Source: an uncultured Latescibacterota bacterium
GTDB taxonomy: Bacteria; Latescibacterota; UBA2968
NCBI GenBank assembly: GCA_958295785.1
Contig: OY282377.1
Span: 4,900,896-4,964,895, forward strand
Length of the DNA stretch: 64,000 bases
Direction: 5' to 3'
Numbering within the stretch: position 1 is the stretch's first letter; every line of letters starts with the position of its first letter. The notes below the pieces were generated by a model. The model saw only the letters and a list, made by a program, of their open reading frames with translations, was not told the origin of the DNA and searched no databases. The translations under genes were made by a program, and so were the position numbers. Below are positions 13,307-33,276 of the stretch, piece by piece.

Positions 13307-13373
13307 GCTCTCTCCTTTGCGCGATGACAAGGCGTGCATCCTAACGCGGTTTGCACCTGCTGTCAAGCGAAAC

Positions 13374-13408
13374 AAAAAAGGAGGCGACAGCACAAGGTGT
13401 CACCTCCT
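13374..13408 (-). terminator. Rho-independent terminator (minus strand)
   Basis: On the minus strand AGGAGGTGACA pairs with TGTCGCCTCCT (one G-T), followed by six T. It would stop leftward transcripts from the island before they reach the FAD dehydrogenase gene. Confidence 0.8.
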
Positions 13409-13431
13409 CGAAAAATGAATGTTGACCGTTG

Positions 13432-13537
13432 TAATACCAACTTGCTTTCAAGTTGTCCGTATCCTGCCTCCCATCAAGGATGAATGAGGAACAGACGTTC
13501 TGTACGGATCATGCGTTGCTTGTCTCAAGCGTTTGGC
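13432..13537. mobile_element. Left-end fragment of family-A MITE-like element
   Basis: Begins TAATACCAACTTG, then follows the full copy at 6286 closely through CGTATCCTGCCTCCC and the GCGTTTGG block, and diverges near 13537. The region from there to 13706 shows no gene. Confidence 0.7.
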
Positions 13538-13706
13538 CCTGTTTTCGCGCTTTGACAACTGCACATTCAAACGCTTCCCAAAGCTCTCGTTGTACGTTTT
13601 CAGGCTTCTTGGAGATTGTTGGACACATCAAAGTGATACTCCTTCACAGAATGCTATAAAGTCATTTCATCAAGACCAGTGCCCTTTTTTACCTTGCATT
13701 TGGCAG

Positions 13707-15419: not shown

Positions 15420-15484
15420 AAATTCTCCTTTGGTTATTGCGTTTGCAATTGAATTTCCAAGCCTCTCCTGTGAATGAATTTACC

Positions 15485-15540
15485 CTAAATAACGCTTTCT
15501 ATTTCGGATTGGGCTATGTCGCAGAGCAAGATAATTTCTA
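15485..15540 (-). promoter_or_regulatory. Shared upstream sequence of the two restriction genes, copy 1
   Basis: About 55 bp (AACGCTTT, GGATTGGGCT, GTCGCAGAGCAAGATAATT) recurs at 18640-18690. Each copy lies 70-110 bp upstream of a minus-strand restriction-type gene. It may carry a common promoter or operator, or be a scar of a duplication; no clear -35/-10 pair is defined. Confidence 0.55.
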
Positions 15541-15586
15541 CTCTCAGTCGGTGCATCGGGCGATTTTTGGCAGTTGAGCCGTGGTG

Positions 15587-15841
15587 TCATCCATTGGGCG
15601 CGAGCAAGCGTTTTGCCAACTCGAGGGCATCTACGGGCCAGAGGCTTTTGGGGCGAGGCCGGTATACGCTGGGTTGTCCTTCCTCTGGCCGGCAGTTGAG
15701 CGCGGTCTCAGTCCGCCGATTGGGCACGGCGTCCCCTGCGAATTGACCCAAGAGACATCCCTGCGCGCGGCAAAGCATGCCAGGGTCTTTGACATTGCGG
15801 AGAACGATCTTCATTTGAGGCCTAGATCCTGTTGTATTCAT
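15587..15841 (-). pseudogene. N-terminal fragment resembling ADP-ribosylglycohydrolase
   Basis: An open frame of 84 codons. RAQGCLLGQFAGDA near 25 matches the conserved opening of ADP-ribosylglycohydrolases (RxxGCLLGxxxGDALG), which remove ADP-ribose from proteins or DNA. After GDA the similarity fades and the frame stops after 84 codons instead of about 270, so the catalytic Asp pairs are missing. ATG at 15841 has GAGGAG upstream, inside the end of the M48 protease gene, so the two were probably coupled in one operon. The break falls next to the repeated sequence at 15485. The family call rests on one motif. Confidence 0.4.
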
Positions 15842-15843
15842 AT

Positions 15844-17511
15844 TCACTCCTCAATCATCTGCCAATTCAGCCCCGAGCCGGGCAGGGTGACGGACACTTT
15901 TTTCACCTCGAGGGCATCCAAAGTGCCCGGCAGTTCGCCGCGCAGCAGAAACCCCTGATCTTCGTACGGCCCGATGAGCGAATCTTCTTTGTTGTCCAAT
16001 TTGATCTTTTTGCCGGTTGCCGTGGTAAAAATGATGTCCTTAAATTTGCGGGGTTTGCCAATGTCAGCGGTGGCATAGACCTTGCCCAAGACCTGCGTGG
16101 GGTCCAAAGAAAAGCGACTGGCAACGGCGGACGTGGTCCAGCGTTGGCACGACATTTCAAGGGTCACGACAGCATCCCCCTTTTTGTTGCGCCCCACCAC
16201 GCGCACGGGGTTGTCAAACACTTTGACCTTTGACCCCGTGAAAGCCGCGATGCGGTCGTCGAGCAAGGGATGCGAGCGAAACGCCTGTAAGTTTTTCTCG
16301 TCGCCCCCGATATAATCGGTGTAATACCGCAGTTTCTTCAACACGCGCGTCATTTCAGATAGCCCTTCCTGCCCGTGTTGCCGTTCCAAATACAACGCGG
16401 CCATCGCATCGGCCTCTTCCTCCATTGAGCGCGGATACCCTTCAAAAAACACATCTGTCGCGGACTTGGCCAACGCAGCCGCCAACCCGCCCCAAATGAT
16501 CGCGTTTTCCATTTTGTTGTCTTTTGATTTGGCGCCAGCTATCACGCCGACCAGCACGCCCACGCCCGCTGCAATGGCCTGCTTCTTTTGCTCGTTGCGG
16601 TAAATCCGATAGCTGTGCCGGCGCTCGACATGCGCGATTTCATGGGCGATGACGCCCTCGATTTCCAAATCGCTCTCTGTGGTTTCCAACAACCCTCGGT
16701 TGACAAATACAAAGCCCGTGGGCAGCGCGTAGGCATTGATCTCATCGTCTTCCATGACCGAAAACCGATAGTGATACCCCTGCAAGGGCACGGGCCAATT
16801 GTCGAGCACCCGTTGTCCAATTTCTCGTGCGCGTACCTGCAAGGCGTGATCGGTTGACAACTGGCCCATGCCTTGCACTTGCTGAGACGCGTACAAGCCC
16901 AATGTGCGCTCGGTTGTGTAATCGCTTACCAGCGGCATTCGCATAAAACACAGTTTGCACGCCCGCATGCCCGCGCCTTCGGCCTCTAACTGCGTGTGAA
17001 ATGCCTGCTGTTTGTCTGCATCGGGCAGGTGATTGCACGAGGCCACATGAAACATGTTGCTCTGCGTATTGCCGATCAACGCGGGCAAAACCTCGGCGTC
17101 TTCACCGGTCTTGAAACACAGCGCGAAGCCCGCATCAAAAGCCGCGCGATTAAGGAGTGGCGAATGCAAGGGCGCCGAGAAGCGCGCCTGCCCCTTGCCC
17201 AACCGCACGCTCACAAACTCGACTTCTATCGCATCGTCTCGCGCTTTGACCGAGCGAATTTGCACCGGCTCGTCCTTTGCAATGCGAAACATCGTGGGAT
17301 ACCGCCGGGCATGCGCGTAATAATACACCGCGCCGCCGTGCTCGTAATACGTCATCGGATTTTGATGAATACTCCCGCGCAACGCCACATCGCGGCCCTT
17401 CCACGCTTTCTCCAATTCCTTGCCCAAACCCCCAGGCACTTTCCGCGCAAGCCCCTCACCACTCGCACACAGACACAACACAACAGCCATCAAACGAATG
17501 AAATTGATCAT
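15844..17511 (-). CDS. M48-family zinc metalloprotease with Ada-like zinc-binding module
   Basis: 555 residues. Residues 1-22 are a signal peptide (MINFIRLMAVVLCLCASGEGLA). Residues 153-190 (FHVASCNHLP...ACKLCF) resemble the Ada-type metal-binding domain, in which four Cys hold zinc. The M48 peptidase domain follows: HEIAH at 290-294, with EEEADAMA near 364 giving the third ligand; RSHPLLDDRIAA is typical of BepA/LoiP-like proteases. It should act in the periplasm on envelope proteins. ATG at 17511 with AAGGAG 9 bases upstream; the longer frame (to 17724) is rejected. The C-terminal 120 residues are not recognised. Confidence 0.8.
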   Translation of the reverse strand: MINFIRLMAVVLCLCASGEGLARKVPGGLGKELEKAWKGRDVALRGSIHQNPMTYYEHGGAVYYYAHARRYPTMFRIAKDEPVQIRSVKARDDAIEVEFVSVRLGKGQARFSAPLHSPLLNRAAFDAGFALCFKTGEDAEVLPALIGNTQSNMFHVASCNHLPDADKQQAFHTQLEAEGAGMRACKLCFMRMPLVSDYTTERTLGLYASQQVQGMGQLSTDHALQVRAREIGQRVLDNWPVPLQGYHYRFSVMEDDEINAYALPTGFVFVNRGLLETTESDLEIEGVIAHEIAHVERRHSYRIYRNEQKKQAIAAGVGVLVGVIAGAKSKDNKMENAIIWGGLAAALAKSATDVFFEGYPRSMEEEADAMAALYLERQHGQEGLSEMTRVLKKLRYYTDYIGGDEKNLQAFRSHPLLDDRIAAFTGSKVKVFDNPVRVVGRNKKGDAVVTLEMSCQRWTTSAVASRFSLDPTQVLGKVYATADIGKPRKFKDIIFTTATGKKIKLDNKEDSLIGPYEDQGFLLRGELPGTLDALEVKKVSVTLPGSGLNWQMIEE

Positions 17512-17578
17512 TGCGAAACTCCTTGTTGTGGGTTGCTTTGTTCGACCATTAAGCCAATGGCATTTTGGATTTGCAGGT

Positions 17579-18577
17579 TTAGAACAAATCAAGACCACCG
17601 AAACGCAACACAAAAGCGGCAACATCCTCGCCAATAAGCAAAGAGACGGGTTTTCCTTCTTCTTTTTCGAGTTCATTAAGGGCAGTGACAAATTTTTCTG
17701 AACAGGAATCAGCGGTGGATACAATCAGTCCCATGTCTGCTTCAGGGTAATAGCCAAATGCTCTTCGAATATCCTTCACAGCCTTGGTGTCCCGCAGCTC
17801 GCCAATAAATGATTTCACTTGGACGACGCAGGTGGATTGTTGCTGGAACCCCGGAATGGGCAGTCCCGATTCAAAGACCACAGTCAGATCTGCTCCGTGG
17901 TCTGCCTTGCCACGGTGTCGAATTACTTCTTGAACTCCAGGGACCTTCTTGAAGATTTCCTCAAGCAATCCCTCAAGGTCAAAGTTCGGGTGTGTACGCT
18001 GAATTTTCTTTGTAATACTCTTGAGGTCTGGTTGAATTTCCTGCACAAGCCAATGAAGGTTTGTCTCCAGTGTACTGTGTGAGCCTTGTTTGCCCTCTTT
18101 CAGTGTTTCTACAAGGTTCTCAAATTCCTCATGTAGAGAATAGATGCGCCAGAATCGTCCTTGGAGTTTCAGCCGCCTTCTCAGCGTAGGATGAACGATG
18201 GCGTCGTTTCGGTCAAAAACGAAAATTGACTCAGTGTCAACATAAAAACGATGGTTGAAATCCGCGCCATCACGGTGCCAAAAATAGGGGCTGGTGACAC
18301 GGGCGAGTGTACACTTACCCCATTCCGGCAAATTGATGTAAACCACATAGTCATTCTTTTTGATATCAAGCAAGAAGCGTTGATAACAGTCCTGTTCTTC
18401 TTCTGAAAGACTGTTCTTGCCCTCAGCCTTAATTTTGGCCTCCAACTCGTGCAAATTGGCGGTTGGGATATAGCTCCAACCAAAACGCCCTTCACCCTCT
18501 TTCAGAGACTTAAAGGTAACGTTGCACCAATGAAGATCGGGAGCTCCCCTCAGTGCATAGATCGTGTAATCGCTCAT
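17579..18577 (-). CDS. Mrr-type restriction endonuclease
   Basis: 332 residues. The C-terminal third is an Mrr_cat PD-(D/E)xK nuclease: GVQEVIRHRGKADHGADLTVVF near 226 holds the catalytic Asp, and CVVQVKSF near 262 replaces the QxK motif with VQVKS. The N-terminal 190 residues (WSYIPTANL, INLPEWGKCTLARVT, YVDTESIFVFDR) probably recognise DNA, but the domain is not one I can name. Mrr enzymes attack methylated foreign DNA. ATG at 18577 with AAGGAG 7 bases upstream; the longer frame to 18637 has none. Upstream DNA is shared with the GmrSD-like gene, so the two may be co-regulated. Confidence 0.8.
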   Translation of the reverse strand: MSDYTIYALRGAPDLHWCNVTFKSLKEGEGRFGWSYIPTANLHELEAKIKAEGKNSLSEEEQDCYQRFLLDIKKNDYVVYINLPEWGKCTLARVTSPYFWHRDGADFNHRFYVDTESIFVFDRNDAIVHPTLRRRLKLQGRFWRIYSLHEEFENLVETLKEGKQGSHSTLETNLHWLVQEIQPDLKSITKKIQRTHPNFDLEGLLEEIFKKVPGVQEVIRHRGKADHGADLTVVFESGLPIPGFQQQSTCVVQVKSFIGELRDTKAVKDIRRAFGYYPEADMGLIVSTADSCSEKFVTALNELEKEEGKPVSLLIGEDVAAFVLRFGGLDLF

Positions 18578-18639
18578 TTTACTTCTCCTTTGAAACAGGT
18601 GGCTTTCGACTCGTGCGACATTACCCAACCCAAACAACG

Positions 18640-18690
18640 CTTTGTGTTTTGGATTGGGCTGTCGCAGAGCAAGATAATTCTTATTTTCAA
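18640..18690 (-). promoter_or_regulatory. Shared upstream sequence of the two restriction genes, copy 2
   Basis: Matches 15485-15540 at roughly 80 percent over the aligned bases, including the GTCGCAGAGCAAGATAATT block, at a similar distance from the start codon of the Mrr-type gene. Confidence 0.55.
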
Positions 18691-18793
18691 AAAAGCGAAT
18701 CTTAAAATTCAGGTTACAAAGACGCCATTTCGACGGTGCTCAAGGCAGGTCGAGATGGCGTCCGAGAATATAGATACAAGCGGCTTGTTCGCT

Positions 18794-19195
18794 CTATTGT
18801 AGTTCACAATTTCTAACCAAGACATAGACCAGTTTGCCTGAGACTTTGCCTTTGACGCTTACACGCTGTCCTTTGGATAAATCCGCAACCAAAGACTCTT
18901 GGTCATCAGCAAAGACGCAGTGGACGCCATCAAGAAGTCCACTACCCCCAACGACAATAAACATATCGTTCATAACATCCTTGCCGATATTTTCGATTGT
19001 ACCGTGAACGAGGACGATCTCTCCCTTGTATTTTCTATCTGCGGCAATTTCATTGCCTTCGTATTCCATAAAAAGATCGTCTGCTGATACGATGTATTTT
19101 GGAGCGTGCTTTGCAGTTTCTTTCTGTTTCTCCAATGTTGCCTTGGCTACATTAGGAAAGGTTTGGGTATCGTCCGCAAGGTCGGGTGGCCTCAT
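18794..19195 (-). CDS. OB-fold protein of the tRNA_anti-like family
   Basis: 133 residues. From about residue 36, SADDLFMEYEGNEIAADRKYKGEIVLVHGTI, then CVFADDQESLVADLSKGQRVSVKGKV, fits the tRNA_anti-like OB-fold (PF12869), whose members are small, often secreted proteins of unknown role. No signal peptide is visible here. The ATG overlaps the stop of the LamG gene (ATGA), so translation is coupled and the two probably work together. Despite the family name there is no evidence for RNA binding. Confidence 0.6.
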   Translation of the reverse strand: MRPPDLADDTQTFPNVAKATLEKQKETAKHAPKYIVSADDLFMEYEGNEIAADRKYKGEIVLVHGTIENIGKDVMNDMFIVVGGSGLLDGVHCVFADDQESLVADLSKGQRVSVKGKVSGKLVYVLVRNCELQ

Positions 19196-20919
19196 GGGGA
19201 ATAGGATGACGTGAAACGGTTGATTTCAGTCGCTATTTTCTTTGCCAGACTTTTCAATGCTTCATTTCTCAATTCTTCGGTACTTCTGAGATCCCTCCGA
19301 GCATCGAATCTTCGCTCATACAGTGGAATAGCTTTCCATTTTCCATCGTCTCTATATACATGACTCATAAGCGTATTAACATCTCCGTAATATGTTGCAT
19401 ATTCTACCTCGTCACCAAGATTTTCACGCGCAGTGCCAGATCGGAGAACAGAACCTGTTTGCGTGTCCAGAATTTTATAGGTCGCTTCACAACTAACCTG
19501 CACGCTCTGTGATACAATATAGTAAGTTCGCTGTGGTCCTCTTCCTACAATCCGTCCTTCATACTCCATCGCTGTATAGGCCGTTTTACCTTCTCGATGA
19601 GGATATGATCTGGTCGCTGTGGCTGTCAGCAAGTCACCAAACACCACAACGCGAATATCTGCTTTTTGTGCCGCAGCTAAAGTCTGAGTGGGGGCAATCA
19701 TGCTGAAATCGATCCCATGCCTTATGAAAAGCCGGTTGAGCATCTGCTGATCTACATATTCGACAAAGACCGATTTACCATCTATCAAATTGGCCGTCAA
19801 TGCCTGTTGGAGAAGAGTGATATTGGCACCTAAAATTGACGATTTGAAGGGATAGATCGCAACGCGGTATTTGGCCTTTTCGAGTGCGGTTCGCATTTGC
19901 ATTTGTGCATCTTTGAAACCGGTTACTTGACGTAGTGCAGACTGGAAGTTGGAATATGCCTGTCGATATTTGCCTTGCTGGAAAGATCGGGTACCGGCCT
20001 GATAAAAGTTCTCGGCTTGCCGTTTGGCTTCAAGCCGGCGGGCCTGTGCATGCAAGATATTGGCGTTTTTGTAACCCGGGTATATGTCGATCAACTTCTC
20101 AAACTCCCTTATAGCCGCAACAAATTCCCGTGCGTCAAGGGCAGTCTTGGCCTTTTCGTAGTGTGTTGCAGCTACCTTATCAAGTTCCCCAGGTAACAAC
20201 AGAGGGGCTATGGCAGGAACATTTTCAAGTTTTGCTGTCCCTACCATTCTCGCCGGTGCGTTTGGATTAACAACATTGGGAACTTGATCGCCATCTGATT
20301 CCGTGAATCTATAGTATGCTAATAAGCCATCTTCTTTTCCTGATAAAGCCTGATACATTGAGAAACGTATCTCGTCTTGTGACCGTCTTTTTGACCAAAT
20401 GCGTAGGTCTGAAATATAACCCTCGAATAGCTTGTCATCGGACCAATTAGACTTACCGACATAATTCATTCCCCCAGCGGCTTCACTGAGAGAACCCTGA
20501 TACTTATCCTCATCAACAAATCGCCCATTGATATAAAATTCCATGCCCCCCGGTCCGCTTACAGTTGCGATATGATACCAAACGCCGGTATTAACTGCTT
20601 TTTTTGCTTGTGTCCCATGTCGTTTTCCCGATTTGTCCCAAATTCTGTAATTGAGCGTGTTAGAGGTTTTTTCATTTTGTAAAACAACCGCATTTCCTTC
20701 GCGTCCAAAATCAAAAACGCGAGACCATTTGTTGAAACGATGCCATTTTACCCAGACTTCAATCGTTGCCTTCGTTGTTCTATCAAAGAGATTTCTGGGC
20801 AACTCGACATGAGACTTGCCATCCAAAAAGAGCACTGGCATCTCTTGTGAGATGGCACAACTTACATTAAGTAGCAACCAAGAGGTTGCTATCACGAATG
20901 CACGGATAAGCCTTATCAT
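19192..20919 (-). CDS. Exported LamG / TPR / CsgG-like envelope protein
   Basis: 575 residues. A signal peptide (residues 1-25, with a possible but atypical lipobox ending in Cys20) is followed by a LamG/concanavalin-like lectin domain (about 28-225: VELPRNLFDRTTKATIEVWVKW, GVWYHIATVSG, MEFYINGRFV, ISDLRIW). A short TPR-like helical section covers 245-360. The last 210 residues (YRVAIYPFKSS, DIRVVVFGDLL, YKILDTQTG, LAKKIATEIN) look like a CsgG/TolB-N-type fold. I infer an outer-membrane-associated assembly or stress protein. ATG with AAGGAA upstream. AT-richer than the flanking metabolic genes. Confidence 0.65.
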   Translation of the reverse strand: MIRLIRAFVIATSWLLLNVSCAISQEMPVLFLDGKSHVELPRNLFDRTTKATIEVWVKWHRFNKWSRVFDFGREGNAVVLQNEKTSNTLNYRIWDKSGKRHGTQAKKAVNTGVWYHIATVSGPGGMEFYINGRFVDEDKYQGSLSEAAGGMNYVGKSNWSDDKLFEGYISDLRIWSKRRSQDEIRFSMYQALSGKEDGLLAYYRFTESDGDQVPNVVNPNAPARMVGTAKLENVPAIAPLLLPGELDKVAATHYEKAKTALDAREFVAAIREFEKLIDIYPGYKNANILHAQARRLEAKRQAENFYQAGTRSFQQGKYRQAYSNFQSALRQVTGFKDAQMQMRTALEKAKYRVAIYPFKSSILGANITLLQQALTANLIDGKSVFVEYVDQQMLNRLFIRHGIDFSMIAPTQTLAAAQKADIRVVVFGDLLTATATRSYPHREGKTAYTAMEYEGRIVGRGPQRTYYIVSQSVQVSCEATYKILDTQTGSVLRSGTARENLGDEVEYATYYGDVNTLMSHVYRDDGKWKAIPLYERRFDARRDLRSTEELRNEALKSLAKKIATEINRFTSSYSP

Positions 20920-20931
20920 TGCAAATTCCTT

Positions 20932-21067
20932 TCCAAGAAGCCATCTTAAAATTATCGAGACCTACCCCCCTAACCTCTCTTGGCAGTATAGGAGGTTTTG
21001 ACCTGCCAAAAGCGAATGTTTTTGTGACTATTCAATGGCTGTTAGGGTTTTTAAGACAGTTTCTAAG
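20932..21067. repeat. Family-B miniature inverted repeat, diverged copy
   Basis: Left end AAGAAGCCATCTTAAAATT, right end TTTTTAAGACAGTTTCTAAG, forming inverted termini. The interior ATCGAGACCTACCCCC block is shared with 57662-57732. Confidence 0.6.
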
Positions 21068-21078
21068 TGAAGCACCGC

Positions 21079-21522
21079 CTAAAAGATGGAAGCCCATAAA
21101 GTCATTTTCGTCACAGTATTTGCCACCTCAACCGTTGCCACTGATATGTAAAAGTTCCCTTGCCTTAAGTTGGTTTCTCCCGAACTGAGTGTTACTGTCT
21201 CTATTCCAGAGACGGGAGCATACTCGGCGATCTGGAACCCAGAAGCATCCTCAAAGGCCAGGCGGCCGATGGTTACCACATAGGGCAAAGAACTTGGATT
21301 GCGGAGCGTGATGTCCCAAGCTCCAGTGATAAAGACCCCGGATTGCGTCTCCTCCGATGAGATGAAACGCCACCTCGTATCCGCTGTTATTGGGCTACCC
21401 TGCCATGATACACCAAGGTGTTCATGGGACGTCGTATTGAGACTGACCTTCGGGGAAGAAATGCCGTCATTACCACATGCCAGCATCAAACAGACAGTCA
21501 AAGCATACATCAAAAAACGCAT
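21079..21522 (-). CDS. Small predicted lipoprotein
   Basis: 147 residues, not recognised. MRFLMYALTVCLMLAC is a clean lipoprotein signal with lipobox LMLAC and lipidated Cys16. The mature part is beta-rich (WRFISSEETQSGVFITGAWDITLRNPSSLPYVVTIGRLAF), as in immunoglobulin-like folds of the FxLYD kind. ATG preceded by AAGGAG. It lies just upstream, in transcription order, of the family-B repeat and the LamG gene, and may share their envelope context. Confidence 0.65.
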   Translation of the reverse strand: MRFLMYALTVCLMLACGNDGISSPKVSLNTTSHEHLGVSWQGSPITADTRWRFISSEETQSGVFITGAWDITLRNPSSLPYVVTIGRLAFEDASGFQIAEYAPVSGIETVTLSSGETNLRQGNFYISVATVEVANTVTKMTLWASIF

Positions 21523-21619
21523 GTCAAACTCCTTTGTTTGGATCAGTTAATTTTTTTCACGCGAGCAGGGGCGGGCGATGGAAGAAAGTAAACATCAGCC
21601 GACCCCTGCGATTTAGAGG

Positions 21620-22174
21620 CTAAAACAGATAGCCCAATACGAGGGAAAATTCATTGATGGCGGCTGTCACATTCTGAGAACTCAACGTATTCTCTTTTTG
21701 TACGAAACTCACTCCTCGGGTTTCCAGCCCCAGCGAAAACCGCTGACCTATAAAACGCTTCACGCCAACGGCTGCGGTAAATGCAAACTTGACGCCCGTG
21801 TCGTACAGCGGAATGGGATCGCTTACGCCCAACCCTGCTTCGAGATAGATGCGCGTGGGTTTCCCCGCTCGCCAACTGTAGCGGTAGGCCGCAAATATAT
21901 CGCCCATCCATGCTTCCGCATTGCCCAAGTTGCTACTGATTTCATAAGCCGCCGCGCCATAGCGCACGCCAATGGCTTGGGTTTCGGTCAAGTTGTAAAT
22001 GAGTTGGCCGCCCAAATAAGCGGTCATACCAGGGGGCGAGGGTTCCATATCGTTGAGAATGGTGTGACCGCCGAGGGAAAAAGAGACTTCGACACGTCCG
22101 GCTTGATCTTGGGCTTGAACATTCTGAAGCGAAAAGAACAAAATTGAAAACACAACCACCATGATGCGTGACAT
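21620..22174 (-). CDS. Outer-membrane beta-barrel protein (OmpA/OmpW-like size)
   Basis: 184 residues. The signal peptide MSRIMVVVFSILFFSLQNVQAQ is followed by alternating hydrophobic strands (VEVSFSLGGHT, QAIGVRYGAAAYE, IYLEAGLGVS, FAFTAAVGVKRFI, FSLVLGYLF). The terminal Phe and overall pattern are those of an eight-stranded outer-membrane barrel. Function unknown. ATG at 22174 has GGAGGT 5 bases upstream, which decides against the longer frame to 22240. Confidence 0.75.
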   Translation of the reverse strand: MSRIMVVVFSILFFSLQNVQAQDQAGRVEVSFSLGGHTILNDMEPSPPGMTAYLGGQLIYNLTETQAIGVRYGAAAYEISSNLGNAEAWMGDIFAAYRYSWRAGKPTRIYLEAGLGVSDPIPLYDTGVKFAFTAAVGVKRFIGQRFSLGLETRGVSFVQKENTLSSQNVTAAINEFSLVLGYLF

Positions 22175-22919
22175 AAAACCTCCAAAAAAAAGATTACCTA
22201 AGATGGAAAACTCAACTACAGGTGCCCATGTGCTACGCATACCTCATGCGTCATATCCGCCACTTTTGGACGCACGGGAAATTTGCGGACTATTTGTCAC
22301 TGACGTTACGCAGAGACGCGCAAGGGCGCGTGGTGCAAAACATTGCGTTAGGTCAGTTCAAAAAGAGAATGAAACGTATTGCGGAGGGGGTGGTTAGGTG
22401 AAGGCGTTCTTAAACATGAACATGGCATCTCTCCTTTGCGTGTCATGGGATTGACGTGGATGGTTGACAGTTGAAGGTGGGTTTTACCTCTGCGTCCAGC
22501 ACAGGGGCCGGGCAGTGTCAACCATCACGCAGAGAGATGCGGGAAGGGTCCTACTTATTTGCCTCGGCTCAGGGAGCGACCCGTCGCCAGTTGAGTAGGC
22601 TATTGTATTCAGCAGGCTACCCGACATGCGGGCTCTGCTCGATGGTTGACAATCCCAAGTTAGCGATTGTTTGAATTGAAATCAATATCAAAATGCCCCC
22701 GCTGTCCAACCGTCTAAAAGCAGTGGTTAGTCCTCGCCGCCCAACCCCCAAGCGGTCAGCAGTGAGCAAAACGAGTTGTTTTCAGGGATGGGATGGCGGA
22801 GGCTGAAAGTTGAACGCGAAACGCTGATAGCCGTTTTTCCGTGAACGGCTATCGCAGTTGTACCCCGATTCGCCGATGGCTTGAGAGGCGACCAGTTCCC
22901 CGTTCCGTTGTTTCGGCTG
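22175..22919. other. 745-bp intergenic region without a supported gene
   Basis: Contains several short TGGTTGACA direct and inverted repeats (22455, 22520, 22640), a perfect 10-bp hairpin GATAGCCGTT...AACGGCTATC (22826-22853) without a T tract, and a copy of the GGGGTACAACTGC motif on the minus strand (22848-22868). It looks like decayed accessory DNA at the start of the AAA-ATPase cluster's downstream side. Confidence 0.5.
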
Positions 22920-25814
22920 TCAGAAGCCCGTCGGGGTGCCGCCGGGTTTTGAGTGGCATTCCTTAGAGAGGGCGTCTGCGATGCGGTTTGGATCGTTCAG
23001 AAAGCCCAGCACCTCGGCGCGTTCGCGCACGTTGGCGAAATCCGCGGGGGTGAGTTTGGTCAGCGCGGGCACAGGGGCCGGGGTCTTGGCGTTGAAGAAC
23101 AACGCGAATGCGCGGCGGATGCGCGGCGGATCGAGGAAGCGGAACTCGGCGCGAAACAGAAAGCGGCGTGCGGCGGCCGGATCGAGGGCGTCGCGCTGAT
23201 TCGTGGTACAGGCAAACGGGAGGGGGTGACGCTCCATCTGACTGAGCAACTCGTTGACCATGCTCACTTCCCACGACCGCTGGGCAGATTGCCGATCCAT
23301 GAGGAGCGAATCCACCTCGTCGAACACCAGAAACGAGCGTGTCTCTATCGCTTCGGCAAAGGCCGAGGCAATCCGCTGTTCGGTTTCGCCGACGTATTTG
23401 TTCAAGAGATCAGACGCCCGCTTGGGCAAGAGGTCGATCCCCATCTGCTCGGCAATGTGGCGCACAAACGCGGTCTTGCCCGTGCCCGGCGGCCCGCTTA
23501 AGCAGAGCGCGAACCAGCGCGGGCCCAACGCGACCATCCGGTCGGCCAACGCCGCCATGTCTATATCGGCGTGGACCAAAGACGGGTCGTATTGCTCTAT
23601 CGGGCGCGTGTCGGGCGGGCGGATGCCATAGCGCAATTTTACCTTTTGGGCAACGCTGCGTCGAATGGTTTCGGTGTTCCCGTTGACCATAGCCGCTTGG
23701 TTGGCTGCCATCGTGACTTGCCGCGGCGTGACCTTGTTGCTGCGGGCCAATTCCTCGGCGAGTTGGTGCGTTTCAGGGGCCGGCATGTGCGTCTTGTGCA
23801 GGATGTCCGTGTACACGCGCTGTCGCGCTTGGGCGGACATGTGGCGGAACTCGATGGCGTGTAGCATGCGGTCGATGAAGAAGGGTTGCGCCATGCGGTA
23901 GTAGCCAATGGCGTTGCACGCCCAGATAATCGGCACGGGATTTTCTTCGACAATGCGATTCAGCCAGAGTTTTTCAACGCGGTGAAAGTCTTCCATCTCG
24001 TCGAAGAGGATCGCGGCGTTTTGCTCGTCTGCGAGGGCTTCAAGGGCGTAGTCCAAGGTCTTTGAGCGATTGACACTCAGGCGCGCCTCGGCGCCGATCT
24101 CGTTGTCGCCGATGGCGTAGAGCCGGGTCCCGGCCTCGCCGCAGAGGGTGCGGGCAAACTCGGTTTTGCCGGTTCCCGGCGGGCCGTAGAGAAGGATGTT
24201 GATCCCCTTTTGTCGATTTTGAACCGCAGCGGTGAGGGTGCGCCGCACGTCTTCGGCGTCTTGCCCAAGGTGCGAAAATGCCTGCCATTGGAGCCGTGCC
24301 TCGACCGGCGGCCCCAAGCGCGGACGGGCATACTGCGTGGCGATGGTGCGTTCGAGCCGTTCACTGAAACGGTAGAGATCGTCCGCATTGCCGTTGATGA
24401 GCCGAATGGCTTTGATGGTTTGCGCCAAGATGCCGGGCGGGCACTCGAGTTGATCCACGAGGCGGCGAGCGCACGGGGGTGCGTCAATGCCTTTGAGATC
24501 GCTTTTCTCGATCATCCGTTGCAAAATCGCGGTTTGGCGGGTGGGGTTGTGGGCCGTGAATCTGAGGGCCATGGGGAAACGCCGCAGCATGCTTTCGTCC
24601 CAAGCGGTTAGGCTGTTGGCGGTGTAGATTGTGGGCACGGGTGTTTCTTCTATCAGGCGGTGATTGGCAAGGCGGGTGCCGCGGGTGGATTCCAAGACAT
24701 CATCGGCTTCGTCGCAAAGGATCGCGGCGTCGGGCGCAGACCGAAGGAGGACCTGTGCCATGCGTAACTTGTTGCGTCGGTTGGCGCGCCGGTTGAATTC
24801 AGTGCCGCGCTCTTGCTCGCCTTTACGGTCGGGTTCGCCGATAGAATAGAGAGACGCACCTGCGGCGTGGGCCAGGGTTTTGGCAAATTCGGTTTTCCCA
24901 GTGCCAGCGCGCCCGACCAACAGGATGTTCACCCCGGACACGGGTTTGCCCTTGCCGCGCTTTTGCACTGCGGCGCGAAGCAGGCGGATGGCGTCGTCTC
25001 TGCCATTGAGGTGCGCGAAGTCGTCCATGCTCAACGCGGCCTCGCAGGGCTGGGAGACCAGACGCGCTTGCAATTCGTCCCTGTCTCGCACCGGTGGATG
25101 CCACACTATGGCGGCAAATTCGCGGGTTATGTATTCGTTGGGGGCGATACTTTTTGAGTGTCGGTATTCTCTATCGTACTCCTGGCAGGCGATGCCCCGG
25201 TCAGCTAGCTCGCAGAGCGCGTTCGCTACCTCGTTGGGAGAGCAACCTAGCAAGATGGCAGTTGTTGCGAGATGCCCTTTGATCGCGTCCTGGAGTTCGT
25301 CCCACAAATCTTCGACCATAGGGCAGATATAAGCGTGACGCACGAGTTCGACTAAAGACGCGGTCACAGGCCCCAGGGAGAAATGCTGGGCCACCAAGCT
25401 GGTCGCCATTGATTCGGGCGTCGGCGCAGGTTCCTCGCGGGTATTTTGCTCCAAAATTTTTATCGCGCAGTTGAAGAACTCGGTTAGCTTTGCTTGGATC
25501 GAGAGTGTCTTCAAGTAATCTGTTTCTTGTTTTGAGGGCCGACGATGCACATATCCTCTGGGCAGTCTGTCGTACTCTCGCATGAGAAAGTCGTCCAGTT
25601 TTTCCAATTTTTCCTCATTGTGTTTGAACCAGTCTAATAAATTCTTTCGGATAATCCGATCTTGCCGGGCGGCGCGGAGCGCGTTCCGCAGATAGATGCG
25701 CTTCATGTATTGGTCGTGTTCGGTCATGGATAGAAACCCCTTTTCTTTTTGTTGGGCGGCGCGAAACGCTCTCCGCAGATGGACGTGCTTCATGTATTGG
25801 TCGTGTTCGGTCAT
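22920..25814 (-). CDS. Triple-AAA ATPase (candidate accessory/defence motor)
   Basis: 964 residues from ATG 25814. Three AAA modules are visible. First: Walker A GRAGTGKTE near 301 and Walker B CDEADD near 367. Second: GPPGTGKTE near 544 and FDEMED near 604. Third: GPPGTGKTA near 774 and FDEVDS near 831. The third has a classical pore loop (NKYVGE) and Arg-finger region (AARRF), like Cdc48/FtsH-type AAA unfoldases; the second lacks a clear Arg finger. The N-terminal 250 residues are helical and unrecognised. The start is uncertain because an 87-bp tandem duplication repeats the ribosome-binding site and ATG, so 25727 is a second candidate. Last gene of a minus-strand set with a WYL regulator and a papain-like peptidase. 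Confidence 0.75.
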   Translation of the reverse strand: MTEHDQYMKHVHLRRAFRAAQQKEKGFLSMTEHDQYMKRIYLRNALRAARQDRIIRKNLLDWFKHNEEKLEKLDDFLMREYDRLPRGYVHRRPSKQETDYLKTLSIQAKLTEFFNCAIKILEQNTREEPAPTPESMATSLVAQHFSLGPVTASLVELVRHAYICPMVEDLWDELQDAIKGHLATTAILLGCSPNEVANALCELADRGIACQEYDREYRHSKSIAPNEYITREFAAIVWHPPVRDRDELQARLVSQPCEAALSMDDFAHLNGRDDAIRLLRAAVQKRGKGKPVSGVNILLVGRAGTGKTEFAKTLAHAAGASLYSIGEPDRKGEQERGTEFNRRANRRNKLRMAQVLLRSAPDAAILCDEADDVLESTRGTRLANHRLIEETPVPTIYTANSLTAWDESMLRRFPMALRFTAHNPTRQTAILQRMIEKSDLKGIDAPPCARRLVDQLECPPGILAQTIKAIRLINGNADDLYRFSERLERTIATQYARPRLGPPVEARLQWQAFSHLGQDAEDVRRTLTAAVQNRQKGINILLYGPPGTGKTEFARTLCGEAGTRLYAIGDNEIGAEARLSVNRSKTLDYALEALADEQNAAILFDEMEDFHRVEKLWLNRIVEENPVPIIWACNAIGYYRMAQPFFIDRMLHAIEFRHMSAQARQRVYTDILHKTHMPAPETHQLAEELARSNKVTPRQVTMAANQAAMVNGNTETIRRSVAQKVKLRYGIRPPDTRPIEQYDPSLVHADIDMAALADRMVALGPRWFALCLSGPPGTGKTAFVRHIAEQMGIDLLPKRASDLLNKYVGETEQRIASAFAEAIETRSFLVFDEVDSLLMDRQSAQRSWEVSMVNELLSQMERHPLPFACTTNQRDALDPAAARRFLFRAEFRFLDPPRIRRAFALFFNAKTPAPVPALTKLTPADFANVRERAEVLGFLNDPNRIADALSKECHSKPGGTPTGF

Positions 25815-25838
25815 AAATAGAAACCCTCTTTTCTTTTG
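25669..25838. repeat. 87-bp tandem duplication at the start of the AAA gene
   Basis: Two diverged copies with an 87-base period. Each holds a GGGTTTCTAT leader, an ATG and the codons for MTEHDQYMK. In frame, the protein starts with two 29-residue repeats (MTEHDQYMKHVHLRRAFRAA and MTEHDQYMKRIYLRNALRAA). Confidence 0.85.
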
Positions 25839-25952
25839 GGATCTGTGTCGTCTTCCGTATTTCTCAGGAAATTTTTGGAAAAAAAAGAGACGCATTCATT
25901 GGAACGCGCCTAAAAGATAAACAGGGAGTATGACAAGGTATGTCGTAGGTGA

Positions 25953-26930
25953 TCATGTTTTTTGATAAAAATTCAGATTTTTTTTGAGTTCCTCGATTAT
26001 TTTCTCGCGCAGGGCGGCTGGCTCGAGGACTTCTGCCTCGGCGCCATGGCTCAGAATCCACGATTTGATTTCATGAAGCCCGCCGGCTTGAAAGGACAGG
26101 ATGATCTCGCCGGTGTCCAATTCCTCGATCTCTTGCGAGGGGTGCCAAATCCGCTGTTTGACATAAGGGGCTTGCGATGCGGAAAATCGGACTTTGACCG
26201 GTATGGGGGCTTCGAGTACAATGCCGAATGCCTGTTGAACGCGGTCTTCGATGTTGAGGTCCTCGGGCGGCTCAAAGGTTTGATCTGTGATTTCGAGTGC
26301 CTGAATGCGTTCTGCGGCCAGTGTGAGCAAATTGTCGTAATTCGGATTGCGGCACAGAAGGTAAAATCCATTGTGATAATACAACAATCTCAAGGGCGTG
26401 ATGGGGTATGTTTTGGTTTGTCCGGTCGTGATCGCGCTGTAGGTGACGTTGCAAATTTTGCGTTCGTTGATTGCCTCATGAACTGTTTTGAATATTTGGG
26501 GCGGGATTTGCGCTTTTTGCCCGCGCTGGTGTGGGTGATAAACGGCCCCGGCCCGTTCTAAAAACGCACGCATTTTATCGGGCAGGGTTGTCCTGATTCT
26601 GTTCAGAGTCTTTTTGAATGCCTCGTTGAATGGCGTTCCCTCAAGCGGACTGACGATGCCCTCAATAAACGTCAGGGCGATGATTTCGTCGATGGGAAAG
26701 TTCAGGGGCGGCAAGTTTTTGTTTTGATCGAGTTTCCAATATTTTTTATTATCCCGCACGTCTGATTTGAGCAAGAAGCCCACTTCATCTATATTGGTGA
26801 GGTCTCTTTGTATGGTGCGCGTTGAGACGCCTTGTTGAGCGGCGAGTTCTCGAATGGTCACGCCGTATTTCCGAGTGCTAAATTCCCGGAGAATATCCAA
26901 TTGACGGACGATTTGTCTGGTGTTTGCCAT
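25953..26930 (-). CDS. HTH-WYL transcriptional regulator
   Basis: 325 residues. Residues 1-60 are a DeoR-type helix-turn-helix (VTIRELAAQQGVSTRTIQRDL), and about 140-220 is a WYL domain (ITPLRLLYYHNGFYLLCR) followed by the WCX extension. WYL domains sense nucleic-acid or nucleotide ligands and regulate many phage-defence loci (established knowledge). ATG at 26930 or 26939; neither has a strong ribosome-binding site. It sits 139 bp upstream of the AAA gene and 28-37 bp after the peptidase gene, all on one strand, so it probably controls this set. Confidence 0.85.
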   Translation of the reverse strand: MANTRQIVRQLDILREFSTRKYGVTIRELAAQQGVSTRTIQRDLTNIDEVGFLLKSDVRDNKKYWKLDQNKNLPPLNFPIDEIIALTFIEGIVSPLEGTPFNEAFKKTLNRIRTTLPDKMRAFLERAGAVYHPHQRGQKAQIPPQIFKTVHEAINERKICNVTYSAITTGQTKTYPITPLRLLYYHNGFYLLCRNPNYDNLLTLAAERIQALEITDQTFEPPEDLNIEDRVQQAFGIVLEAPIPVKVRFSASQAPYVKQRIWHPSQEIEELDTGEIILSFQAGGLHEIKSWILSHGAEAEVLEPAALREKIIEELKKNLNFYQKT

Positions 26931-26966
26931 GGGTATCACATTGAGGGTGTGGAGATTGCGGGAGCG

Positions 26967-28619
26967 TTACCATTCTAACAGCGGAATTTCTTCATCCCTG
27001 ATGAGTGGCAGGTGCGTCTGCACATTCCACGGAAAAATTTTGTGGTCTGATCCAAAATGTATAAAGCCAGGGAACCAAGCCAATTCAAAACTTTCGCCAG
27101 CGAGATATTCCTCGTCTGTGGCATTTGCGCGAATGATTACGTCCCCGAGTTTGTGTTTATTGCCGATATAAAGATGAGGCAAGGTAATTTCAGATACCCA
27201 GATATGTTCTGGCATATCGTCTAATCTCTGTTCAATTTCTGGCGTTAATATTACTTGTCCATTTTGAACGAGACCATCAATGTATTGCTTATAGGATGCT
27301 TTTGTTTGAAGCAAGGTCCGGCTTACTATGCTTTGGGATTGTTGAGCCAGTCTTTTAAGCCAAATAAGAGGTGGGTTTTGTATGCGAGAAATAAGAGATT
27401 GGGCAATCCGTACCGCCATCCCTTCTGCCGCAAGACCTGAGATTTGCACATCACTAGGCACTATGGCAACTGCCATTGTAGCGTGTAGGTTCGGATTTTT
27501 TGACGGAACGAGGTAGTTGCGTAGCATATCAGATGGCAAAGTCACGTACATACCAAAGTTATCGTCATTGATGATATAGTGCCCAACCCAACTGGTGACT
27601 GGCGTGTAAGGCTCCACGGGAAATCCGCCATATCCGGATCGGGCTTCTGGTTCCCATCTGTCTGAATTTAGTGTATGTCCCAAAACGGAAACAACATGGT
27701 TAATTCTCTTACTGCTGCGAAAATCCCAACCTTCTATTCCCAATATCACCGGACAAGCCGACTCGACGAATGGATAGATAAATTGGTCATATTCCACGGA
27801 AGTGTTTTGTACAAAATTTGCCGATATTATTTTTCCACCCAATTGGTGAATAACCTTTTCTAACTCTTGAATATCCAATCCCGCTTTGGTTTCTGGTGGA
27901 TCGCCCTCTATATGACCTACACATTTTTCGGGGCTACTGAAATCAATCCCGAGAATCTCATTGATCTTCTGATTTGTGAGCTTTTTAGTCGTAAGCGCAG
28001 ATGAGCTATTTATGGCCATTCTCAAGGCGGCATGGGCACAGACGTGGGTGATGCCATTTTGTTGGGCGAAAAAACTGCCAGTTAGCGTAAAGGTTCTCGA
28101 TTTCGCTGTTGTGCCGATGTTTGTCTCAAATTCTCTGGTGTTATGGACATAGTAATTTGTGATGGGTTCAATGGCCATGCGATCTTTTGCAACGGGCAAC
28201 CATATAGAAGGAGGACGGATCACAGCTTCCAAGAGGTAAGTTCTGTATTGATCGCAGGGTAGTTTAAGCGTTGCAATTACAGCGTAACCCAAGATATGAT
28301 CGTCCGGTAACTCAGCGGGATCGTCCCATTTTAAAGAAGAGGGCAGTGAAAAAAAGAAAGTCAGACGGGTAGCGGTAAGGCCGACATTTTGTTTCCATCG
28401 CGCAGTGGCCATATTCTGTTCTTCCAATAATTCCTCGTTTAATGCCAGTTCCTCTCTAATAAACGATTTGGCCTTCATCTTTCTCATCAGCGTGCATAGG
28501 CGATGCAGGGGATGTGAATTGGTTCCCCGATGCCAAAGATCATCTATAAATTGATAAAACGAGAAGGGGACTTGGCATGATTCCAATAGTTTTTGTTTGG
28601 TTGCGAAGGCGTTTTTCAT
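26967..28619 (-). CDS. Papain-like cysteine peptidase-type protein of unknown family
   Basis: 550 residues, no family that I recognise with certainty. A papain/C39-style active site can be read: Gln187 in FFAQQNG, Cys194 in THVCAHAALRMAIN, His308 in RINHVVSVLGHT and Asp352/353 in YIINDDNFG, with the usual Q-C-H-D order and spacing. Cys194 begins a hydrophobic helix as in papain-like folds. No signal peptide, so cytoplasmic. It is the first large gene of the minus-strand set with the WYL regulator and triple-AAA ATPase; an AAA motor plus a protease suggests regulated proteolysis. AT-rich. Function is inference only. Confidence 0.55.
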   Translation of the reverse strand: MKNAFATKQKLLESCQVPFSFYQFIDDLWHRGTNSHPLHRLCTLMRKMKAKSFIREELALNEELLEEQNMATARWKQNVGLTATRLTFFFSLPSSLKWDDPAELPDDHILGYAVIATLKLPCDQYRTYLLEAVIRPPSIWLPVAKDRMAIEPITNYYVHNTREFETNIGTTAKSRTFTLTGSFFAQQNGITHVCAHAALRMAINSSSALTTKKLTNQKINEILGIDFSSPEKCVGHIEGDPPETKAGLDIQELEKVIHQLGGKIISANFVQNTSVEYDQFIYPFVESACPVILGIEGWDFRSSKRINHVVSVLGHTLNSDRWEPEARSGYGGFPVEPYTPVTSWVGHYIINDDNFGMYVTLPSDMLRNYLVPSKNPNLHATMAVAIVPSDVQISGLAAEGMAVRIAQSLISRIQNPPLIWLKRLAQQSQSIVSRTLLQTKASYKQYIDGLVQNGQVILTPEIEQRLDDMPEHIWVSEITLPHLYIGNKHKLGDVIIRANATDEEYLAGESFELAWFPGFIHFGSDHKIFPWNVQTHLPLIRDEEIPLLEW

Positions 28620-28641
28620 TGGCTCGTCCTTGTCTTATATC

Positions 28642-28674
28642 AAAAAAGCCTCGCAAAAAATTACGAGACTTTTG
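28642..28674 (-). terminator. Terminator between the 62-residue gene and the peptidase gene
   Basis: On the minus strand AAAAGTCTCG pairs with CGAGGCTTTT (one G-T), followed by a T run. It would end the small gene's transcript; the T-rich other side could also work on the plus strand. Confidence 0.7.
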
Positions 28675-28698
28675 GTTTTTCTTGAGAGTGATATGAAC

Positions 28699-28887
28699 TC
28701 ATTTTCCTACAGGTTGTCCCAAGATCCAATGCGTTTTTGCAGACCTTTTTTCCCAAGCCAAAAGATCATCAAGTGCCTGTTTTTCTTGCGCGGTCAACTT
28801 AAAATCTTCGGGTTTGGGAGTGCGGAGAAATATGGCTTGGAGATCCTGTTGTGTCATCGATTCGTTTCGGGGTTGATGTTGGGGCAT
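28699..28887 (-). CDS. Small hypothetical protein (62 aa)
   Basis: Begins MPQHQPRNESMTQQDLQAIF and continues with a predicted helical stretch (LTAQEKQALDDLLAWEKRSAKTHW). Not recognised. GGAGGAGAATT directly before the ATG is a strong ribosome-binding site, and the frame ends just before a terminator, so it is likely real. It lies upstream of the peptidase/WYL/AAA set but behind its own terminator. Confidence 0.6.
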   Translation of the reverse strand: MPQHQPRNESMTQQDLQAIFLRTPKPEDFKLTAQEKQALDDLLAWEKRSAKTHWILGQPVGK

Positions 28888-31954: not shown

Positions 31955-32042
31955 AATCTTCTCCTTTGATAATGGATTTCCCCGTTTGACAATCAAAAAA
32001 AATGCCCTTTAAGCCTGTACAAAATGAATGGGAATTATATAC

Positions 32043-32070
32043 TTGACAACCTAAACTTTCTTGTTATATT
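32043..32070 (+). promoter_or_regulatory. Transposase promoter inside the left terminal repeat
   Basis: TTGACA at 32043-32048, a 16-base spacer and TATATT at 32065-32070. It is followed by three tandem TACAAGT heptamers before the transposase start. The -35 box lies within the inverted repeat. Confidence 0.7.
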
Positions 32071-32113
32071 TATACAAGTTACAAGTTACAAGTTACGAAT
32101 TAACAAGGGGGTT

Positions 32114-33052
32114 ATGATGGCAAAGCAGCTTAGTTTCGTCGCGTTCACACAGAAGTTTGCCACGCCTGAAGCGTGTATTTTGCACCTTGAAAAGATCCGC
32201 TTTAAGGATGGCGAGTCTTGTCCGCATTGTGGTAGTATGGGAAAAATCTATCGTCGTTCTGATTTGGCGTATAGGTGCTCGGATTGTGGGCGTAATTTTC
32301 ATATTATTTATGGAACGATGTTTGGCAAGTCTAAAATCAAGATGTTGCCTAAATGGTTCGCCGCAATATGGATTGAAACGAACCACTCAAAAGGTATTTC
32401 AAGCGTTCAGTTGGCAAAAATGATCGGTACAACGCAAAAGACCGCTTGGTTTATGCTTCAAAGAATACGAAACGCTTTTGGCAACAAAGATGATGATGAT
32501 TTTCTGTCTGGTATCGTTGAAATTGATGAAACCTACATCGGTGGGAAAGAAAAGAACAAACATAAATCCAAAAAGTTGAATGCTGGTCGCGGAACAGGAG
32601 GTAAATCGGTTGCTTTCGGAATGCGGGAAAAAGGTGAAGATGGTGAGGCAATGGCGGTTCATGTGCAGGACGCAAAAGGGGCAACATTACACGAGAAGAT
32701 GTTGAACCGGGTCTTGACGGGCGCAACTATTCATGCAGACGAGAACCGCGCATACGGCGCATTGAGGGATGATTACGAAGTGGAACAAATCAATCATTCT
32801 GCCGACGAATATGAACGCGATGGGGTCCATACAAACGCCATTGAGAGTTTGTGGGCCCTGGTTAAGCGTGTCTATATGGGTATTCATCACCACTGGTCAG
32901 ACAAACACATGCAAAAGTACCTGAATGCTTGCGTGTTTCGCATCAATCGAAAAAAGGTTGATACCTTAAGTCGGGTTGATGAGATGTTGAATATGGCGAT
33001 GGGCGCACGGTTGACTTACAAGCAACTTGTAGCAAGTGAGGCGGTTGCATGA
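32114..33052 (+). CDS. IS1595-family (ISXO2-like) transposase
   Basis: 312 residues. An N-terminal zinc ribbon (CPHCG near 33, CSDCG near 53) precedes a DDE-type catalytic domain: IVEIDETYIGG near 133, HADENRAYG near 210 and NAIESLWALVKR near 240, where the third catalytic residue is Asn/Glu in this family. ATG at 32114 (or 32117) follows AAGGGGG. The stop overlaps the passenger gene's start (ATGA). Confidence 0.9.
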   Translation: MMAKQLSFVAFTQKFATPEACILHLEKIRFKDGESCPHCGSMGKIYRRSDLAYRCSDCGRNFHIIYGTMFGKSKIKMLPKWFAAIWIETNHSKGISSVQLAKMIGTTQKTAWFMLQRIRNAFGNKDDDDFLSGIVEIDETYIGGKEKNKHKSKKLNAGRGTGGKSVAFGMREKGEDGEAMAVHVQDAKGATLHEKMLNRVLTGATIHADENRAYGALRDDYEVEQINHSADEYERDGVHTNAIESLWALVKRVYMGIHHHWSDKHMQKYLNACVFRINRKKVDTLSRVDEMLNMAMGARLTYKQLVASEAVA

Positions 33053-33276
33053 ACAAACTTTATTCTGGCGATTGTATGACCATCATGCAACAGGAAATGA
33101 GGGCATCAAGCGTTGATCTTATCTCCCTTGATCCTCCGTTCAATTCCAATAGGGCTTACCACGCGATTTACAAGGATGAAACAGGGCGACCACTTCCCGA
33201 GCAGGTTGAGGCGTTTTGTGATAGGTGGACGCTTGACAGTGAACGGGAATGGGCGATCCGAAACAAGAAAATTTAG
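33049..33276 (+). pseudogene. Truncated DNA methyltransferase carried by the IS
   Basis: 75 residues: MNKLYSGDCMTIMQQ, then DLISLDPPFNSNRAY. DPPF is catalytic motif IV of N4-cytosine/N6-adenine methyltransferases of the type with motif IV first. The SAM-binding FxGxG motif, which should come some 150-200 residues later, is missing because the reading frame ends in the right terminal repeat. It cannot be an active enzyme as it stands. Coupled to the transposase by an ATGA overlap. Confidence 0.75.

Follow-up and report, generated by a model that had tools for sequence, protein, structure and literature searches.

Do three adjacent genes in the genome of an uncultured Latescibacterota bacterium form a single defence system? 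The genes lie on the minus strand of a 64,000-nucleotide stretch of DNA, hereafter the window, within a complete 5.66-Mb chromosome (assembly GCA_958295785.1, contig OY282377.1, positions 4,900,896 to 4,964,895). They encode a predicted 550-residue papain-like (C39-like) peptidase, hereafter PAP (26967..28619), a helix-turn-helix (HTH)-WYL-WCX regulator (25953..26939), and an ATPase with three AAA modules (22920..25895). An open reading frame (ORF) for a 62-residue protein, with a GGAGG ribosome site just 5' of it, is located upstream of PAP on the same strand (28699..28887). The original prediction, made from the sequence of the window, placed these four ORFs at positions that the ORF coordinates bear out, and grouped the peptidase, the regulator, and the ATPase as one set. 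The comparison with other genomes leads to a different grouping: the small ORF and PAP form a previously undescribed, mobile two-gene unit that occurs in five bacterial phyla or more, and the WYL and AAA genes are a separate pair that happens to adjoin it in the window.

The predicted papain-like Q-C-H-D site of PAP is conserved. Gln187 at the oxyanion position (codon 28059..28061, minus strand, as are the following), the nucleophile Cys194 (28038..28040), His308 (27696..27698), and Asp352/Asp353, of which Asp352 is assigned as the third triad residue (27564..27566), are invariant in 10 divergent homologues, as the original prediction of this site would have it. Cys194, His308, and Asp352 do not vary among the PAPs that extend far enough to include them, and Gln187 is replaced by K or R in two PAPs. 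The gene is under purifying selection (dN 0.11, dS 0.74; nonsynonymous and synonymous divergence, respectively).

The window PAP had no significant match in Pfam-A, NCBIfam, or PADLOC, and PDB sequence searches, a viral structure library, viral contigs, and phage genomes searched with the members P0003 and P0011 yielded no match. P0011, a distant homologue from Pseudomonas aeruginosa, is just over the cut-off of Pfam Peptidase_C39_2 (PF13529; 24.7 bits, cut-off 24, profile positions 4-141 of 143), with its C, H, and D residues all inside the match, and PAP shares with that family the order Q...C, H, and hydrophobic-x-D. Unlike PF13529 members, the window PAP is under every Pfam threshold and includes an N-terminal domain, about 180 residues long and conserved, as well as a C-terminal domain of about 170 residues; unlike C39 systems, it is accompanied by neither an ABC transporter nor a double-glycine leader. 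The AlphaFold model of the window PAP, built on six sequences, had a pLDDT (predicted local distance difference test) of 65, falling below 50 around Asp352, and a pTM (predicted template modelling score) of 0.74. Its best fold matches were staphopains and phytochelatin synthase, most with a probability of 0.85-1.0, but with E values of 0.015-0.1; the staphopain matches had a probability of 0.99-1.0 and TMt of 0.57-0.60, with E values of only 0.015-0.02, and the top match was the staphopain-staphostatin complex 1y4h. These results suggest that PAP resembles papain-like (C39-like) cysteine peptidases, with the triad assigned by sequence and the fold by prediction. The PAPs at L025:6899-9058 and L027:6830-9010 are extended at the C-terminus by about 170-200 residues, in which they share the motif GHP..TG..AARI.GE...SGRYS.

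The distribution of PAP is sporadic and mobile. The first five homologues, found in a public genome set, were two from Latescibacterota at 80% identity, two from Planctomycetota at 35-36%, and one from Nitrospirota at 28%; all five have a short ORF directly upstream, and none (0/5) has an adjoining WYL or AAA gene. A profile of 10 homologues (A3) matched 12 of 392 Planctomycetota genomes, 5 of 246 Nitrospirota genomes, and 7 of 64 genomes of the window phylum, two of these seven being remnants. PAP is also carried by four plasmids, from Mesorhizobium, Shewanella, Hymenobacter, and P. aeruginosa (Proteobacteria and Bacteroidota). Caspase, helicase, AAA_13, or TrlF genes adjoin PAP at several loci, where neighbours were named only if a profile had been run or the record was annotated.

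A partner ORF of 50-77 residues adjoins PAP at nearly every readable locus and is upstream in most of them; in the L063/L065 and L079/L080 subclade, a conserved 66-residue ORF is downstream instead. Two loci were not judgeable in this survey (L048, a truncated contig, and L058, a broken copy), and L057 and L059 were uncertain. A Shine-Dalgarno-led small ORF precedes 13 of 23 PAPs, compared with 24 of 180 other genes of the same loci (p=1e-5); when the Shine-Dalgarno requirement is dropped, the counts are 20 of 23 and 103 of 180 (p=0.004). Tight linkage of a small partner gene to the effector gene, as in type II toxin-antitoxin systems, is therefore observed. The original prediction was right to place the 62-residue protein upstream but took it for a bystander, whereas it is a conserved partner of PAP.

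The small ORF had no significant Pfam match, and its dN/dS of 0.12-0.32 between the window and genus members indicates purifying selection. The predicted structure of the window protein, at modest confidence, consists of a helix (residues 33-51) followed by an unstructured tail, and the conserved C-terminal tail reads HWILGQPVGK. Partner tails at other loci are alike in style, namely GQPVG(K/R), GGPI(A/R), RPVG(S/H), PFTL, and PLNI. In two relatives (G030 and G038), an intact 62-codon small ORF is retained and PAP is largely deleted, which agrees with a costly effector and a harmless partner.

An intrinsic terminator, missing from the original prediction, lies between the two genes in the window (28642..28673, minus strand; 13-bp stem, 4-nt loop, and T run), ending 22 nt before the PAP ATG. 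An automated terminator scan of the window missed this hairpin, presumably owing to pairing of the T run with the A-T arms. The hairpin is kept in G030, G031, G034, and G038, where a stem variant preserves the pairing, and its folding z-score is -2.5 in the window and -3.4 to -4.3 in the relatives. In Shewanella, Hymenobacter, and P. aeruginosa, the corresponding position holds unrelated hairpins with T runs. Overall, of the seven lineages in which 36 nt or more separate the genes, four (the window genus, Shewanella, Hymenobacter, and Pseudomonas) have an intrinsic terminator, whereas two of 54 control gaps between co-oriented genes have one (p=0.0009); the two control matches are orthologous, and L021 and L061, although relatives, were counted as separate lineages. 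The distance from the T run to the PAP start is about 11-31 nt, which leaves little room for a separate promoter, so that PAP is presumably made by read-through. With a terminator in this position, the small protein should, judging from the sequence, be made in excess. At many other PAP loci, the two genes overlap or are no more than 20 nt apart.

Our leading reading, which we hold with slightly less than even confidence, is that the small ORF and PAP constitute a mobile, probably defence-linked, toxin-antitoxin-like module in which a protease would be restrained by its small partner. PAP would be a cytoplasmic papain-fold (C39-like) cysteine protease, and the small protein would bind it, probably by placing its conserved C-terminal tail inside the active-site cleft or close to it, and so silence it. 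The small protein would be kept in excess either by the terminator, with PAP made only via read-through, or by the overlap or near contact of the genes. When this balance is disturbed, for which infection or loss of the element would be the likeliest cause, PAP would be freed and would cleave a host or invader target. In this reading, the gene pair, the conserved catalytic residues, the prediction of a papain-type fold, the terminators, and the sporadic mobile distribution are observed, and the inhibition, the toxicity, the trigger, the target, and the role in defence are inferred. A bolder proposal, which we regard as possible but doubtful, is that the pair belongs to a previously unknown class of toxin-antitoxin or immune modules that act through a protease, in which the C-terminal tail blocks the active site and the read-through terminator sets the ratio of the two proteins, and that some lineages have been recruited to ubiquitin-like (Ubl) conjugation.

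Two known arrangements are close to the proposed module. Staphopain and staphostatin are likewise a papain-fold protease and a small cytoplasmic protein that is dedicated to it and encoded by the adjoining gene, the fold and the location of PAP being predicted. Staphostatins are larger than the PAP partner, and staphopains are exported; in the PAP module, the partner is mostly 50-77 residues long and the genes are separated by a terminator or overlap. ToxIN is a toxin-antitoxin pair with an attenuator between the genes, in which the antitoxin is an RNA and the toxin an RNase. The PAP module resembles such attenuator pairs in mostly having the partner first, the effector second, and a terminator between them, and in being mobile and sporadic, but differs in having a partner ORF on which selection acts at the protein level and, as effector, a predicted protease.

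Several observations weigh against the restrained-protease reading. The definitions used in the small-ORF and terminator tests were set after inspection of the data, and three of the seven wide-gap lineages (L004/L005, L021, and L061) are without a terminator. The small proteins of distant loci scarcely align, so that common homology of all partners is not proven. Survival of the small ORF where PAP was lost could be due to chance, the ORF being a smaller target, and is seen in two genomes. In addition, several PAP loci are among housekeeping or core genes (L060, L062, and L064) and not in defence islands; in one Nitrospirota genome, the pair is inserted between gyrB-like and dnaN-like genes, a core replication locus (L060:8829-10424).

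The main rival, which we consider unlikely, is that PAP serves bacterial poly-Ubl conjugation systems as a processing or deconjugating peptidase, a papain-fold counterpart of the deubiquitinases of eukaryotes. An operon of Multi_ubiq, E2-like, and JAB-ThiF (E1) genes adjoins PAP in L021, L061, L079, and L080, and one of Multi_ubiq, DUF6791-ThiF, and DUF6527 genes adjoins it in L027; in L054, a ThiF gene and a weak JAB-like gene are about 3-4 kb from PAP. In the maximum-likelihood tree, in which some branches are long, the operon-linked PAPs (L054 apart) occur in three places of one of the two main clades, and the window PAP is in the other. The genes adjoining the window PAP include no Ubl, E1, or E2 gene; under this rival, PAPs of the window type would be detached descendants or would act in trans. 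The window genome does have its own operon of Multi_ubiq, E2-like, JAB-E1, and DUF6527 genes 2 Mb away (L097:5094-7703; G000:C1 near 2.976-2.978 Mb), and within the phylum, Multi_ubiq is present in 5 of 7 PAP genomes compared with 11 of 64 genomes overall (hypergeometric p=0.001, inflated by kinship).

Conversely, such an operon is absent from the surroundings of most PAP loci, and a Multi_ubiq search, which overlooked the L061 copy, gave no match for the majority of PAP genomes from other phyla. At four loci, PAP and the operon are in convergent orientation and not co-transcribed, namely on the Mesorhizobium plasmid, in one genome of Nitrospirota, and in G061 and G023, where the operon is a related one; in P. 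aeruginosa, PAP is co-directional and follows Multi_ubiq, E1 (DUF6791), and DUF6527 genes. The operons are themselves mobile, so that sharing of an island by chance is conceivable. The E1s of L021, L061, and L079 carry an H-x-H...D JAB-type motif, indicating that the operon already has a peptidase and that PAP is not simply a JAB replacement, an idea we rejected for these three loci; in L027, where the E1 is of the DUF6791 type, PAP may yet stand in for JAB. As given in the excerpted text of Iyer et al. (2006; PMC1779556), operon type 6e consists of polyUbl, E2-like, JAB-E1, and metal-binding proteins; operons of this kind adjoin PAP at several loci, but PAP is not among the components listed in that excerpt, and most PAPs stand without the operon.

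More improbable still is the alternative that the small protein is a substrate or precursor of PAP, which would trim its C-terminal tail and thereby release a peptide or expose a new end. C39 peptidases act on leader peptides, and PAP is C39-like; the conserved tail (GQPVG, RPVG, or GGPI) lies beside a predicted unstructured end, and an excess of substrate would suit the terminator equally well. However, the PAP neighbourhoods show no recurrent transporter, maturase, or export signal, the tails vary (PFTL, PLNI, ARL, and ALR) and have no common cleavage residue, and the loss of PAP with retention of the small ORF is not predicted.

We give equally little credence to the view that the pair is an ordinary mobile one, a regulatory or housekeeping peptidase and its partner, unconnected with defence or toxicity. 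The core-gene loci (L060, L062, and L064) are as such a pair would have them, whereas sporadic presence, plasmid carriage, and loss remnants argue against it.

The WYL and AAA genes behave as a separate module. The domain assignments of the original prediction were confirmed by Pfam WYL (5e-11) and WCX (5e-22) matches in the regulator and by three PF00004 stretches in the ATPase, with Walker A motifs at residues 328, 571, and 801. The two genes are adjacent without an adjoining PAP in G031, G034, G038, and G021, and more loosely associated in G037. In the genus and order, the AAA homologues are on other contigs or kilobases from PAP. On alpha- and betaproteobacterial plasmids, an AAA homologue is near a WYL gene, together with ADP-ribosylglycohydrolase, DUF2779, HEPN, or PD-(D/E)XK genes. 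Since WYL and AAA recur without PAP, and PAP recurs without WYL and AAA, they are separate modules. Although the three genes are co-directional and adjacent in the window, with gaps of 27 and 57 bp, and both modules use the same hotspot in the genus, it is very improbable that they form one defence system as originally proposed, because the neighbourhood survey that the prediction itself had named as its refuting test found the trio adjacent at no other locus, the same-genus PAPs of 80% identity have neither gene as a neighbour, relatives have WYL and AAA several kb from PAP and in another order, G021 has them without PAP, the more distant PAPs of Planctomycetota, Nitrospirota, and plasmids all lack them as neighbours, and elsewhere they accompany other genes. 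A Pup-like system composed of the 62-residue protein, AAA, and WYL was also set aside, as the partner of the small protein is PAP and the WYL and AAA genes are separable; the HTH_PafC match is weak (E 0.09).

The C-terminal AAA modules of the window ATPase (P0001) match PADLOC IetA (1.7e-30). Unlike IetA, the ATPase has three AAA modules and scores 81 bits against the NCBIfam IteA cut-off of 510, and its neighbours are the WYL regulator and an outer-membrane-like protein, not an S8 subtilase. In the AAA protein start (window 25600-25895), a stretch of about 27 residues is present in two near copies, FLFMTEHDQYMKHVHLRRAFRAAQQ and FLSMTEHDQYMKRIYLRNALRAARQ, and the AAA homologues align from about residue 9-57 onward. 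ADP-ribosylglycohydrolase-centred (ADP-ribose) systems with WYL regulators have been described (PMC9503650), and the plasmid AAA homologues adjoin WYL and ADP-ribosylglycohydrolase genes in a similar manner, whereas the window pair has no recognised ADP-ribosylglycohydrolase gene as a neighbour. On the proteobacterial plasmids L099, L100, L102, and L103, the AAA-WYL genes occur with ADP-ribosylglycohydrolase, DUF2779 (Cas4-like), HEPN, and PD-(D/E)XK genes, and PADLOC returned IetA for the L102 ATPase, generic WYL, weak Cas4, and PDC-S26 (L103), with no complete system. These plasmid clusters are possibly an undescribed defence cluster.

The comparisons correct a plausible three-gene system call. 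No named system with this gene content was found, in agreement with the original prediction, and a search of the open-licence PMC literature found no PAP-like defence gene; PAP is new to Pfam-A (apart from the borderline C39_2 match), NCBIfam, and PADLOC. If the restrained-protease reading is true, the bacterial repertoire would gain a protease-based module that is controlled by a small protein and occurs on conjugative plasmids and in five phyla or more. The link to poly-Ubl operons in three lineages makes it testable whether papain-fold peptidases already worked with Ubl systems in bacteria, a possibility raised in PMC1779556, and Ubl-recruited PAP lineages would, if real, be a prokaryotic precedent for papain-fold deubiquitinases.

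The pair lies in an accessory island with GmrSD- and Mrr-type genes, as the original prediction had described. A HEC-06 gene (PADLOC, GmrSD-like; 1e-40) is located at 13707-15419, and an Mrr-type gene at 17579-18637 passes Pfam Mrr_cat. The gene order in the window is small ORF, PAP, WYL, AAA, outer-membrane protein, further genes, Mrr, M48, HEC-06, and oxidoreductase. The FAD oxidoreductase (window 11954-13393) is the conserved right flank of the hotspot (11954-28887) across the genus, and the left flank of the window island differs from that of the relatives. In two genus members (G033 and G035), the site is empty, and genes of 450, 329, and about 190 codons run directly into the oxidoreductase. 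In G031, G034, and G038, the hotspot holds WYL, AAA, outer-membrane protein, and further cargo genes, and the small ORF and PAP, or their remnants, adjoin the oxidoreductase several kilobases away; the joining of contigs in G031 and G034 was deduced from contig ends. The hotspot of G030 holds the small ORF and a PAP fragment only.

Elsewhere in the window, a transposase-like gene is followed by the apparent truncated start of a DNA methyltransferase gene (32024-33276; 75 residues, DPPF motif), and a 964-residue protein encoded at 38978-41872 has four HEAT-ARM-type PADLOC matches (6e-33).

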